Shown: positions 48,525 through 53,008 of the stretch, piece after piece
How the letters are laid out: each line of letters opens with the position of its first letter
How positions within the stretch are numbered: position 1 is the first letter of the stretch
Assembly (NCBI RefSeq): GCF_024748615.1
Contig: NZ_CP087168.1
Span: 5,394,001 to 5,458,000 of the forward strand
Direction: 5' to 3'
Origin: Pseudomonas sp. B21-048
GTDB lineage: Bacteria; Pseudomonadota; Gammaproteobacteria; Pseudomonadales; Pseudomonadaceae
Length of the DNA: 64,000 nt
Notes under the pieces: model-generated
The model's database searches: none
The model's input: only the letters and a program-made list of their open reading frames with translations
What the model was told of the DNA's origin: nothing
Position numbers and translations under genes: made by a program

Positions 48525-49292
48525 TTAGAGAACGGGTCCGGGATGCTCCCGTAACGCCGTCAGCAAGGCCGCGGCGCTGGCGCCACGACAATCCACAACT
48601 GTTTGGGCCCCGGCGGCACGTGCCAGCTCGGCTACCCTGGGGCTTGGAACAAACAACGGCAGCTGCGACAACTGCAGCCAGGCATCGCCAGCCAACTGAT
48701 GCAGGTGCTCAAAACCCTGTCCACTGCTGACCACCAGCCCGTTCAAGTGTTCCGCTTCGATCCGGTCAGGCAGCGTTGCCGACGGGTACTGCGGCAAGCC
48801 GCGTCGGTACAACTCCAGATACTCGACACTAGCACCAAGCTCGCGTAAACGCTCAGCCAGCAGCTCGCGCCCACCCTCCCCGCGCATGATCAGTACCCGC
48901 GGATCGGGGCCGGCGACAGCTTCGCGCAACGGCGCAAGCTCAAGCAACGCTTCACTGTCGTCGCCAGCGACCGGGAAACTCACATCCAGCCCGTTATCCC
49001 CGAGGATCTGCGCCGTCGCCGCGCCTACGCTGAACCACCGCAGAACCGGTGATTGCGGCCAGTACTGGTTGAGCAGATCGACAGCGATTCGGGCGGCCGG
49101 TTTGCTGACCACGATCACCGCGCAATAGCGATCCAGGTTCTGAATCATTTCGCGCATTGTGTCAGAAGCAGGCATCGGCTCGATATCCAAAAGCGGCAAG
49201 CTGCTGCTGAAAACCCCCGCGTCGGCCAGCACACGGGCAAGCGCCGCCGACTCATCCGCAGGGCGCGTCAGCAGCAGGCGCCAGCCAGTCAC
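48525..49292 (-). CDS. hemD: Uroporphyrinogen-III synthase
   Basis: A 255-residue enzyme that closes hydroxymethylbilane to uroporphyrinogen III with inversion of ring D. The protein is poorly conserved in general, but the start [20 protein letters not shown], the central [19 protein letters not shown] and the [20 protein letters not shown] segment, with the two-domain length, fit HemD. The ATG overlaps the hemC stop by four bases, which secures the call. Second gene of the hemC-hemD-hemX-hemY operon. Confidence 0.95.
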
Positions 49293-50230
49293 TCGTGACC
49301 TGCCTCACCATAAACTGCTTTCAGAATGGCGCCGGCGCCCTGGCTCAGCAGGTCTTCGGCCACTTGCACTCCCAAAGCCTCGGCATCGCCACGTGGCGCA
49401 CGAGCCTCAGCACTGAGCAGCAGGCCGCCGCCCGGATCACCCACCAAACCACGCAACCAGATCTGCTCGCCTTCAAGCACGGCGTAGCAGGCGATTGGCA
49501 CCTGGCAGCCGCCATTCAAATGTTTGTTGAGAGCACGTTCGGCAGTCACACGAGTGGCCGTGTCCTGATGATGCAGCGGCGCCAGTAATGCGTGGATTTC
49601 AGTGTCGGCGCTACGGCATTCGATACCGACCGCGCCTTGGCCACCAGCCGGCAGACTGTCTTCGACGCTGATGGCCGAGGTGATGCGGCCTTCGAAGCCC
49701 AGGCGAATCAAGCCTGCCGCGGCGAGGATGATGGCGTCGTATTCGCCAGCATCGAGCTTGGCCAGGCGAGTGTTGACGTTGCCGCGCAGGAAGCGGATTT
49801 CCAGGTCCGGGCGACGAGTCAGCAGTTGAGCCTGACGGCGCAGACTGGAAGTCCCGACAATGCTGCCTTTTGGCAACTCATCCAGGCTGGCGTAAGTGTT
49901 GGAAACGAAGGCATCGCGCGGGTCTTCACGCTCGCAGATGCAAAACAGACCGAGGCCTTCGGGGAAGTCCATCGGCACATCTTTCATGGAGTGCACGGCG
50001 ATGTCAGCTTCGTTTTCCAGCAGCGCGGTTTCCAGTTCCTTGACGAATAGGCCCTTGCCGCCGATTTTCGACAGCGGCGAATCGAGCAGCTTGTCGCCGC
50101 GACTGACCATGGGTACCAGCGTCACGAGCAGGCCCGGATGGGCCTCTTCCAGACGGGCCTTGACGTATTCGGCCTGCCACAAGGCGAGTGCACTTTTGCG
50201 GGTGGCGATGCGGATTTCGCGAGAGGACAT
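49289..50230 (-). CDS. hemC: Hydroxymethylbilane synthase (porphobilinogen deaminase)
   Basis: A 313-residue enzyme that joins four porphobilinogens. Conserved parts: [60 protein letters not shown], and [20 protein letters not shown] with the cysteine that carries the dipyrromethane cofactor. Length is that of E. coli HemC. First gene of the hem operon; it lies about 175 bases after algR on the same strand, so read-through from algR is possible but an own promoter is likely. Confidence 0.97.
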
Positions 50231-50406: not shown

Positions 50407-51153
50407 TTAAAGCTGTTGCATCATTTTGCGCACGCCGGCCACATGGCGTCGGCTGACGATCAGGGCATCGCCGTTCAGACCTTTGAGAAACAGCTGGAAA
50501 TGCCCCAGAGGCGTGCGTTGCAGCCGCTCGATGCGTTCGCGGGCAACCAATGCGTTGCGGTGGATGCGAACGAAACGGTCGCCAAATTCGTCTTCGAGGG
50601 CCTTGAGTGGTTCGTCGAGCAGCACTTCACCGCCTTCATGACGCAAGGTGACGTACTTGTGGTCGGCGATGAAGTAGACCACCTGACCCAACGGAATCAG
50701 TTCGATGCCTTTTCGGGTGCGGGCGCTGATGTGGCTACGCGGACCGCTACCGGTTTCGGCCGCGGGGCGAGTCAAGGCCGCGAGCTGAACGCGATTGGGT
50801 CGCTCGGCCTTCTTTAATGCTTCGTGTAACTGTTCTGTGCGCACTGGCTTCACCAGATAACCCACGGCGCTGGCCTGTAGGGCTTCCACGGCAAATTCAT
50901 CGGGCCCCGTGCAAAACACCACGGCGGGCGGGGTTTCGCGTTCGCACAATCGTGCAGCCACTTGCAGGCCATCGAGACCCGGCATGCGAATATCGAGCAA
51001 CACGATATCCGGCTTGTGACTGTCGATCAGTGCCAACGCCTCTTCGCCATTCGTAGCGCTGGGCTCCAGGACATTGTATCCCTCGAGTTCGCCGACCATC
51101 CGGCTCAGGCGCTCGCGGGCCAAGGGTTCGTCATCGACGATCAGGACATTCAT
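50407..51153 (-). CDS. algR: LytTR response regulator AlgR
   Basis: A 248-residue response regulator. The receiver domain begins MNVLIVDDEPLARERLSRMV and has the phosphoacceptor Asp in PDIVLLDIRMPGLDG and a lysine in VGYLVKPVRTEQL. The C-terminal LytTR DNA-binding domain contains VVYFIADHKYVTLRHEGGEV and DRFVRIHRNALVARERIERL. In P. aeruginosa AlgR controls alginate, twitching and rhamnolipid genes with its kinase AlgZ (FimS). ATG 51153 overlaps the TGA of the preceding frame (ATGA), the usual coupling to algZ, but here that frame is only a remnant of the kinase. AlgR may thus work without its cognate kinase. Confidence 0.97.
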   Translation of the reverse strand: MNVLIVDDEPLARERLSRMVGELEGYNVLEPSATNGEEALALIDSHKPDIVLLDIRMPGLDGLQVAARLCERETPPAVVFCTGPDEFAVEALQASAVGYLVKPVRTEQLHEALKKAERPNRVQLAALTRPAAETGSGPRSHISARTRKGIELIPLGQVVYFIADHKYVTLRHEGGEVLLDEPLKALEDEFGDRFVRIHRNALVARERIERLQRTPLGHFQLFLKGLNGDALIVSRRHVAGVRKMMQQL

Positions 51154-51569
51154 ATTGCGCTGGATTCCTGCGTGAGTCTCGCACAAGGATAGCGTAGACA
51201 GGTGAAGTGACGTCCGTCACCGCGATCCACGCTAAGACTAGTGCGAGGGCCAAAAAGTGCCGCGAGACCGGCGGCTAAATTTTCATCTGCCGCGTGACTG
51301 ACGGCCCAGGCCCGCACTGGCGAGGCATCGCCATAGGGTTTGCTGATACACAATATGAACACCCCTCTTCTTTCTGTAGTCAGCTGCAGCCTCGAGAAAT
51401 GCGCTGATCCTCTGTCCAACTGTAGACGGTTGCCGGGACGATATTGCTCAATTGAAAAATATCGTTGCGCAATTTCCGTATCGCTTGCTTCGAGCAGGGG
51501 GTGCACGATGAAAAAAAACCTGTCGACCAGTGTCAGCGACAGGATTGGCAACCCTGTTATTATCCGCAT
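51150..51569 (-). pseudogene. algZ: Degenerate remnant of sensor kinase gene algZ (fimS)
   Basis: The normal algZ position, overlapping algR, holds only a 139-codon open frame; the full gene has about 350 codons. Three parts still resemble LytS/AlgZ kinases: EIAQRYFSIEQYRPGNRLQ (about residues 32-50, the segment after the phospho-His helix), FILCISKPYG (71-80, a strand of the ATPase domain), and LAALFGPRTSLSVDRGDGRH followed by FTCLRYPC (102-128, the kinase end). The membrane domain, the phospho-histidine helix, the N-box (usually PLLENA.xHG) and the glycine-rich loop are missing. The frame has no internal stop and keeps the ATGA overlap with algR. It might be translated, but it cannot be a working kinase. 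Confidence 0.82.
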
Positions 51570-51613: not shown

Positions 51614-53008
51614 ATGAGCACTGACAAGACCAATCAGTCCTGGGGCGGCCGCTTCAGTGAACCCGTCGACGCCTTCGTCGCCCGCTTCACCGCCTCCGTC
51701 ACTTTCGACCAGCGCCTGTATCGCCACGACATCATGGGCTCGATCGCCCACGCCACCATGCTGGCCAAGGTCGGCGTGCTGACCGATGCCGAGCGTGACA
51801 GCATCATCGATGGGCTGAAAACCATCCAGAGTGAAATCGAGGCCGGCCAGTTCGACTGGCGCATTGACCTCGAAGACGTGCACATGAACATCGAGGCGCG
51901 TCTGACCGACCGCATCGGCGTGACCGGTAAAAAGTTGCACACCGGTCGCAGCCGTAACGACCAAGTCGCCACTGACATCCGCTTATGGCTGCGTGACGAG
52001 ATTGACCTGATCCTCAGCGAAATCACCCGTTTGCAACAAGGCTTGCTGGAGCAGGCCGAGCGCGAAGCCGGCAGCATCATGCCGGGCTTCACTCACCTGC
52101 AAACCGCGCAGCCGGTGACTTTCGGGCACCATATGCTGGCCTGGTTCGAAATGCTCAGCCGTGACTACGAGCGTCTGGTGGACTGCCGCAAGCGCACCAA
52201 CCGCATGCCGCTGGGCAGCGCCGCGCTGGCCGGCACCACTTACCCGATCGATCGCGAATACACCGCTCAACTGCTGGGCTTCGACGCGGTCGGCGGCAAC
52301 TCGCTGGACAACGTGTCCGATCGCGACTTCGCCATCGAGTTCTGCTCGGCCGCGAGCATCGCGATGATGCACTTGTCGCGGTTCTCCGAAGAGTTGGTGT
52401 TGTGGACGAGCGCGCAGTTCCAGTTCATCGATCTGCCGGACCGTTTCTGCACCGGCAGCTCGATCATGCCGCAAAAGAAAAACCCGGACGTCCCAGAGCT
52501 GGTTCGCGGCAAGACTGGCCGGGTATTCGGCGCGCTGATGGGCCTGCTGACCCTGATGAAAGGCCAGCCACTGGCCTACAACAAGGACAACCAGGAAGAC
52601 AAGGAACCGCTGTTCGACGCCGCCGACACCCTGCGCGATTCGCTGCGGGCCTTTGCCGACATGATCCCGGCGATCAAGCCCAAGCACGCGATAATGCGCG
52701 AAGCGGCTCTGCGCGGTTTCTCCACCGCCACCGACCTGGCTGACTATCTGGTTCGGCGTGGCCTGCCGTTCCGTGATTGCCACGAAATCGTTGGCCACGC
52801 GGTGAAGTACGGCGTGGACAGCGGCAAGGACCTGGCGGAAATGAGCCTGGAAGAACTGCGCAAGTTCAGCGACCAGATCGAGCAGGACGTGTTTGCCGTG
52901 CTGACCCTGGAAGGCTCGGTGAATGCCCGTGACCACATCGGCGGGACTGCGCCGGCGCAGGTCAAGAAGGCTGTTGCTCGCGGTCAGGCGTTGCTCGCCA
53001 GCCGCTAA
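51614..53008 (+). CDS. argH: Argininosuccinate lyase
   Basis: A 464-residue enzyme that splits argininosuccinate into arginine and fumarate. The start [20 protein letters not shown] is typical; the fumarase-superfamily signature is [20 protein letters not shown], with [20 protein letters not shown] and [20 protein letters not shown] as further conserved regions containing the active-site residues. ATG 51614 is used; the reading can be extended upstream to 51530, but this would enter the algZ remnant. Divergent from algR, as in PAO1, where algZ lies between them. Confidence 0.97.

Follow-up and report, generated by a model that had tools for sequence, protein, structure and literature searches.

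What remains of a sensor kinase gene once its kinase has been discarded, and how does the response regulator fare without its partner? The question is raised by a 139-codon open frame in Pseudomonas sp. B21-048, standing immediately before algR where the gene of the LytS-type kinase AlgZ (FimS) would be expected. The original prediction, made from 64,000 nucleotides of contig NZ_CP087168.1 (positions 5,394,001 to 5,458,000; hereafter the window), took this frame for the remnant of algZ, AlgR for an orphan and the open frame itself for something that selection maintains. Searches of the genome and a comparison across the genus bear out the first two readings and overturn the third. We consider it highly probable, as the best explanation overall, that the deleted algZ has left mainly regulatory DNA, and that the orphan AlgR operates in a kinase-free mode with a relaxed receiver switch.

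A kinase gene in fragments

The source genome is one contig of 5.71 Mb (99.95% complete). On its minus strand the 139-codon frame is followed by algR and then by two genes that we take to be hemC and hemD, while argH, rightly described as intact, diverges on the plus strand (Table 1). In P. aeruginosa, algZR and hemCD are cotranscribed (PMC5790918). The regulator is identified as AlgR by its REC and LytTR architecture and by the gene order argH-(algZ)-algR, and is identical over 248 residues to the AlgR of P. farris SWRI79, of a P. mandelii strain and of Pseudomonas sp. Irchel s3b2. As predicted, the TGA of the frame overlaps the ATG of algR as ATGA; its 5' end is overlapped, on the opposite strand, by the sigma-70-like match before argH. 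The algR and argH start codons lie 460 bp apart, compared with 1,238-1,354 bp in the nearest kinase-bearing clade, a shortening of about 780-890 bp that exceeds the ~650 bases first supposed.

Table 1. Features of the algR-argH region (window positions) and of the pilus operon discussed below
Feature	Position	Strand	Basis
hemC (presumed name), downstream of algR	49289-50230	-	ORF
algR, intact, orphaned REC + LytTR response regulator; D7, D8, D54, T82, K102 present	50407-51153	-	ORF; Pfam Response_reg + LytTR
139-codon open frame, eroded algZ DNA, judged no maintained gene	51150-51569	-	frame varies in relatives; no Pfam/NCBIfam match
3' algZ block, AlgZ residues 288-360	51153-51371	-	protein and DNA match
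algR leader, strongly conserved, about -73 to -1	51154-51226	-	conservation; RNA fold signal absent
Putative AlgU (sigma-22)-type promoter GCACTT-N17-TCTTA; putative start about -73 from algR ATG	51233-51260	-	motif
Middle algZ block, around AlgZ residues 220-243	51390-51485	-	protein and DNA match
Distal island TTGAGC-N21-TACAGTTG, probable distal algR promoter with sigma-S/sigma-70-like -10 CTACAGT	51417-51451	-	promoter class inferred
Sigma-70-like match before argH, GCGACA-16-TATTAT	51536-51563	+	consensus scan only
argH, intact, divergent	51614-53008	+	ORF
fimU-pilV-pilW-pilX-pilY1-pilE-like operon by fimT-like and pilSR-like genes	L211 6116-11862, within 4,808,000-4,822,000 of the genome		

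Searched against its own genome, the AlgZ protein matches at 51153-51371 (residues 288-360, 68% identity, E 1e-25) and at 51414-51485 (residues 220-243, 75% identity, E 4e-4), and the remnant DNA blocks are 83-84% identical to an intact locus (L010). Protein and DNA alike, in the position upstream of algR, thus mark the remnant as homologous to algZ; a further block of common DNA corresponds to the argH-side upstream region (L021, 1-126). Of the three AlgZ-like segments originally described, the homology to AlgZ is real, but the supposed ATPase strand and C-terminus form one continuous block rather than two. The phospho-His, N-box and membrane parts of AlgZ are missing from the remnant, as had been claimed, and its 139-residue translation matches no Pfam or NCBIfam family. 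The AlgZ search finds nothing in the genome outside the remnant, a plasmid search with the region gives no match, and the LytS-type His_kinase family (PF06580) to which an AlgZ/FimS kinase would belong has no match in this single, nearly complete contig, so that no moved or full-length copy of algZ was found. AlgR is therefore an orphan, its cognate kinase being neither nearby nor represented by another member of its family in the genome, which leaves kinases of other families as possible donors.

Loss of algZ is old and not special to B21-048. AlgR occurs in 169/169 sampled Pseudomonas genomes, its kinase domain PF06580 in only 56, leaving 113 without. We assembled 191 algR-argH loci from the best 80 AlgR matches among named records and from 111 of the 169 genus genomes, among the matches listed. 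Seven are second copies from the same genome; the remaining 184 divide into 57 with full-length spacing (including the distant outgroup L007 and the broken-frame locus L173) and 127 that are short. Residue and open-frame counts refer to the 184 loci, and the matched pairs, dN/dS and cross-clade site test were likewise calculated without repeats; the tree, AlgU-motif count, island distances, fourfold-site heterozygosity, parsimony, first branch-length run, tally of newly variable sites, overlap test and comparison of Thr82 with PilY1 include them. On a tree of algR and argH the short loci sort into 111 of fluorescens type, 15 of putida type (a group with support 1.0) and a single genome, G167, and algZ has been lost at least three times in the genus. 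The fluorescens-type group joins full-length species such as P. gingeri and P. batumici at support 0.90. Because this large loss group is poorly supported as a single clade (0.34), there could have been more losses; the tree includes algR with its accelerated receiver, and attraction among the short lineages would lower the count, not raise it. One genome, G101 (L173), has kinase-length spacing and a kinase domain yet only 78 open codons into algR, and its sister G167 (L191) is without algZ; G101 possibly represents a loss in progress, or an error in a genome that is 86% complete.

Conservation between algR and argH

The original prediction suggested that an open frame coupled to algR is kept by selection for translation into that gene. 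Counted from stop to stop in the frame of the ATGA, at least 139 open codons are present in 7 of the 111 fluorescens-type loci, B21-048 included (median 78), and in none of the 15 putida-type loci, whose maximum is 71 and in one of which just one codon is open. In 35 close loci (again including B21-048) the net length of the last 235 nt departs from that of B21-048 by -1, -2 or -13 in 23 cases, by -3 in six and not at all in six, and their third codon positions show no excess variation overall. Heterozygosity in these loci is 0.25 at fourfold sites of algR and argH, 0.09-0.24 by phase in the stretch between the two conserved islands described below, and about 0.01 over the last 60 nt; since the inter-island stretch varies less than fourfold sites, it may itself be under some constraint. 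The conserved frame, codon-phase constraint and indels in multiples of three that distinguish a functional coding gene are not found. A search of 5.8 billion proteins with the 139-residue query returned 39 matches from 74 candidates (10 named AlgZ by their source, five carrying PF06580, three 'hypothetical', one 'penicillin-binding protein', most nameless), a search that considers lengths of 0.55-1.75 times the query and in which full-length AlgZ could not show. What is conserved is DNA, namely the putative promoter islands and the leader, and not a reading frame; we judge the 139-codon frame to be a chance union of pieces in B21-048 and a few others, not maintained as a gene.

Retention of this DNA, measured by blastn against intact algZ, is uneven. 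Alignment of the 111 fluorescens-type loci is complete over -400 to -360 and -120 to 0 relative to algR, and over -320 to -260 is seen in only 6-7%; within the group, the tree calls for at least five deletions of -330 to -240, which is kept in 7/111. In the 15 putida-type loci, products of an independent loss, -400 to -340 is aligned in 53-84% and -100 to 0 in 80-99%, with hardly anything between. Every loss of algZ has spared the same two islands: the stretch just before algR and a distal element. The proximal island has the sequence and place of the published AlgU promoter of P. aeruginosa algR, which starts at -73 (PMC4064291), and published work on that species puts algR promoters within algZ. 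AlgU-type boxes (GCACTT-N17-TCTTA-like) lie at -107 in 111/111 fluorescens-type loci, all of which fit the AlgU form GAACTT/GCACTT-N16-17-TCTGA-like in sequence and position, the transcription start being predicted. The strict pattern is absent from 15/15 putida-type and 19/57 full-length loci, 17 of the latter 19 reading TCTCA; among 12 putida-type loci displayed, 11 carry GAATCTTT at the AlgU site, seven of them with TCTGA.

The distal island contains the sequence CGTCTACAGT in all 127 short loci and in 41 of the 57 full-length ones. It lies at about -407 in full genes, -316 in the close relatives of B21-048 and -193 in most putida-type loci, and the pattern TTGA[AG]C-N21-TACAGT fits 102/111 fluorescens-type, 10/15 putida-type and 38/57 full-length loci. 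It has no exact textbook promoter match and is not flagged by a sigma-70 scan. Its CTACAGT resembles the sigma-S -10 box, a likeness from which we infer that the island may be the RpoS promoter; more generally, it is probably a distal promoter of algR.

Both places appear to have been under constraint before the kinase was lost. Across 55 intact algZ genes, the last 90 nt show 0.37 of the synonymous variability expected, as against 1.08 elsewhere, and outside this tail the variability is lowest at the distal island, whose codons CTA CAG TTG score 0.07, 0.00 and 0.04; by permutation, windows of eight conserved codons were as low in 11 of 2000 trials. Such depressed synonymous variation indicates that both islands were already constrained while algZ was a gene and, together with their sparing at every loss, leads us to read the remnant as most likely algR promoter DNA formerly embedded in algZ. 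Third-position GC in intact algZ, elsewhere upstream about 0.75-0.87, drops to 0.38-0.52 near where the distal island begins (about -426 to -355), is 0.60-0.69 between the islands, and over the last 140 nt is mostly 0.41-0.50 with two windows of 0.65-0.73, a codon-usage mark that fits embedded regulatory DNA. The algR leader is conserved well past the needs of a ribosome-binding site and holds a GTGACG-GA-CGTCAC palindrome. A structured RNA leader was considered and rejected, its folding being no better than that of shuffled sequences.

Three other accounts of the remnant have to be weighed against embedded promoters. An assembly error, or a recent deletion peculiar to this strain, has nothing to recommend it beyond the single window and is scarcely credible: the contig is complete, and the same blocks at similarly short spacing in the 127 algZ-less loci, from many assemblies, refute it. 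A second account, in which the remnant is still translated as a short gene (a leader peptide, or a coupling frame that selection keeps so that translation passes into algR through the ATGA overlap), could appeal to the open frame of B21-048, to the 109 of 111 clade members with at least 64 open codons before algR, and to a 145-residue 'hypothetical protein' (P0003) predicted by a gene caller and 94% identical over 62% of it. Set against these are the frame-shifting net lengths, the want of third-position excess, the shorter open frames of the putida group and the absence of a family match, and we regard such a gene as very improbable. Rather less remote, though still unlikely, is the idea that the islands are binding sites or an RNA element and not promoters; for a -10 box the invariant CGTCTACAGT core is unnecessarily long, and near-palindromes surround both islands, but the distal island lies at distances from algR that vary between -407 and about -193, which a promoter would tolerate, the proximal island coincides with a mapped AlgU promoter in sequence and position, and the leader RNA shows no folding beyond that of shuffles. 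Embedded promoters thus remain our preferred reading.

The AlgR receiver after loss of the kinase

Among the 127 algZ-less AlgRs the residues D7, D8, D54 and K102 never vary, which suggests that some chemistry of the pocket still matters. Thr82 and Lys102 have been proposed as phosphate contacts (PMC4064291). T82 is present in 57/57 full and 15/15 putida-type loci but missing from G167 and, if S is accepted in place of T, from 48/111 fluorescens-type loci; Thr/Ser82 is thereby missing from 49/127 algZ-less AlgRs, while Thr82 itself is kept in 76/127, B21-048 included. A83, found in 57/57 full loci, is replaced by G, S or T in all 15 putida-type loci, in G167 and in 84 of the 111 fluorescens-type loci. 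H84 (56/57 full loci) is D or E in the putida type, Q in G167 and some other residue in 108/111, and continues to change within the clade without settling on a new residue. Position 99 is Y or F in 57/57 full loci, and H in 9/15 putida-type and 5/111 fluorescens-type loci.

Relaxation of the receiver is also seen in substitution rates (Table 2). Parsimony was run on 175 of the 191 loci, leaving out L007, the divergent algZ-less L133, L190, L198 and loci with too little argH. A first branch-length run agrees with it for REC and was dropped for LytTR, where an implausibly large kinase-bearing sum (12.1) was ascribed to the distant outgroup. Relative to LytTR alone, the speed-up of the whole receiver is clear in the fluorescens type only.

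Table 2. Change in AlgR with and without algZ (bootstrap over sites; intervals in brackets)
Measure	Kinase-bearing	putida-type	fluorescens-type	G167
REC changes per site relative to argH, parsimony	1.62	5.55	5.23	3.65
REC/argH, ratio to kinase-bearing		3.44 (2.09-6.04)	3.25 (2.11-5.13)	2.28 (1.26-4.30)
LytTR versus argH		2.14 (0.92-4.18)	1.41 (0.45-3.24)	1.41 (0.43-3.48)
REC versus LytTR		1.67 (0.80-3.98)	2.35 (1.01-7.24)	1.59 (0.62-5.85)
REC/argH, first branch-length run	0.73	3.98	4.12	1.84
Difference in matched pairs, residues 78-107	0.070	0.380	0.417	
Difference in matched pairs, residues 1-77	0.113	0.070	0.110	
Difference in matched pairs, LytTR	0.050	0.063	0.033	
dN/dS, residues 78-107	0.026	0.231	0.227	
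dN/dS, residues 1-77	0.072	0.059	0.077	
dN/dS, LytTR	0.034	0.040	0.020	
dN/dS, argH	0.083	0.049	0.040	

Of 18 newly variable sites, 15 fall within residues 78-107, a window picked after the variable sites had been seen, so that p-values on it are descriptive. An overlap test and a cross-clade site test are independent of that choice. Among sites fixed on kinase-bearing branches, all 19 that changed in the putida type also changed in the fluorescens type, where 37 of 72 did so (p 1.5e-7), and when 13 sites were chosen on the fluorescens type alone, 11 of them proved to have changed in the putida type, against 8 of the other 59. Matched pairs were drawn at an argH fourfold divergence of 0.25-0.35 (668 kinase-bearing, 31 putida-type, 2894 fluorescens-type); dN/dS, from all pairs with repeats, L007 and L173 left out, is about ninefold higher over residues 78-107 in both large loss clades. 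In an AlphaFold model of AlgR this segment comprises strand 4, helix 4, strand 5 and the start of helix 5, the model (32 sequences, mean pLDDT 70.6, block means of 72 and 65 for residues 81-100) being used only for the order of strands and helices. The coupling of Tyr and Thr (Y-T coupling) in receivers has been described, and pseudo-receivers defined, in PMC12632262; by that definition the AlgR of B21-048 keeps all five active-site residues, while the AlgRs without Thr/Ser82, all but one of them in its own clade, do not. We apparently see here, in replicate, how an orphaned regulator drifts toward a pseudo-receiver.

Mode of action and relation to known systems

In P. aeruginosa a D54N AlgR still supports alginate production, whereas twitching needs both AlgZ and D54 (PMC4064291). 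That AlgR may well act without phosphorylation, as originally suggested, is supported here, and strains like B21-048 seem to have adopted the first of these modes, in which AlgR comes from its own promoters and its quantity determines its activity. The 3' coding half of algZ would have held the algR promoters, an AlgU-type one about 107 bp and a distal element about 400 bp before algR. Deletions would then have taken the kinase sequence and spared the two islands, since algR, and probably hemCD too, still needs transcription, as well as the argH promoter region. AlgR would from then on work only in the kinase-free mode, one that P. aeruginosa enters when its internal promoters are active; in the absence of AlgZ, constraint would have lifted from the Thr/Tyr switch and the alpha4-beta5 output face, the acidic pocket, D54, K102 and the DNA-binding domain remaining fixed. 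The comparison shows the losses of algZ, the decay of the frame, the conservation of the islands and the relaxation of the receiver; that the distal island is a promoter, that phospho-control has gone, and why the kinase was lost, are matters of our interpretation.

The main rival to this kinase-free mode is that D54 of AlgR continues to receive phosphate, whether from acetyl phosphate or from a kinase of another family, so that AlgZ was replaced and not dispensed with. We think this possible but somewhat doubtful. The unvarying D7, D8, D54 and K102 are what it would predict, as is the Thr82 of B21-048 and most algZ-less strains; AlgR autophosphorylates with acetyl and carbamyl phosphate, and B21-048 retains a fimU-pilVWXY1E-like operon, which in P. 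aeruginosa depends on phospho-AlgR (PMC4064291). Against it, the rise in dN/dS over residues 78-107, about ninefold in each of the two large loss clades, includes the switch positions 82 and 99, position 84 is still changing, and more than a third of the algZ-less AlgRs are without Thr/Ser82. In the pilus operon PilV, PilX and PilY1 score above curated cut-offs and PilW below, fimU and pilE owing their names to position and pilin family; a consensus AlgR box (CCGTTYGNC) is absent between the fimT- and fimU-like genes, and the one match elsewhere in the locus compares with 1.75 expected by chance. PilY1 (PF05567) is present in 55/56 algZ-positive genomes, G159 being the exception, and in 49/113 algZ-negative ones, counts that ignore relatedness; its presence in many algZ-less genomes and absence from one algZ-positive genome make it seem that kinase loss came before pilus loss. 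That algZ was lost because its type IV pilus target had gone does not hold for B21-048, which has the operon. Among 50 fluorescens-type loci of known PilY1 state, Thr82 is kept in 14/20 with PilY1 and 0/30 without, a link that rests on few events since the PilY1 groups are nested.

Taken furthest, the kinase-free reading describes a repeatable path, to which we give an even chance: three lineages would independently have deleted algZ, kept exactly its hidden algR promoters and then relaxed constraint on one common face of the receiver, namely beta4-alpha4-beta5 together with the Thr82/Tyr99 switch, the Asp54 pocket and the DNA-binding domain being retained. AlgR would thereby have become uncoupled from its switch and controlled by amount, through AlgU and the distal promoter and not through phosphorylation; some lineages would already be pseudo-receivers by definition, and the invariant acidic pocket would serve another use such as metal, fold or small-molecule binding. 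Common as orphan regulators and pseudo-receivers are, the steps of their origin are seldom observed. A kinase found in 56/169 genomes and lost at least three times offers replicated before-and-after comparisons within one ortholog family, revealing which receiver residues become free once the kinase goes, and promoters inside an upstream kinase gene seem to decide what outlasts its deletion. Furthermore, P. aeruginosa findings on phospho-AlgR should not be transferred untested to P. fluorescens- or P. putida-type strains.

A literature search, with most subscription journals outside its reach, found no paper on an algZ deletion remnant or on receiver relaxation in algZ-less Pseudomonas. The name itself calls for care: 'algZ' in P. 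fluorescens papers can mean amrZ (PMC4395868), and its listing for strain PCL1751 (PMC4599888) is therefore no firm evidence of the kinase. Compared with AlgZ/FimS-AlgR of P. aeruginosa, known here from published descriptions, B21-048 has an AlgR ortholog with the same REC and LytTR domains and a putative AlgU promoter at the published position, and its remnant 3' algZ DNA is clearly homologous to the intact algZ of relatives; it differs in that the kinase gene is deleted, the formerly internal, probable promoters stand alone and the switch region of the receiver is relaxed. An AlgR without algZ is already in print for P. putida KT2440 (PP_0185), whose AlgZ partner is entered as 'nd' in a table of PMC12112638. 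That entry concerns one strain, probably of the separate putida-type loss, and the passages of the paper that bear on it contain no analysis of remnant, promoter or receiver. With the orphan regulators and pseudo-receivers of PMC12632262, as described in that paper, the algZ-less AlgRs share the lack of a partner kinase, the drift of the Y-T coupling positions and, in 49/127, the absence of Thr/Ser82, one of the five active-site residues; they differ from those pseudo-receivers in being a single ortholog followed across three loss lineages, in which the phospho-acceptor never changes.
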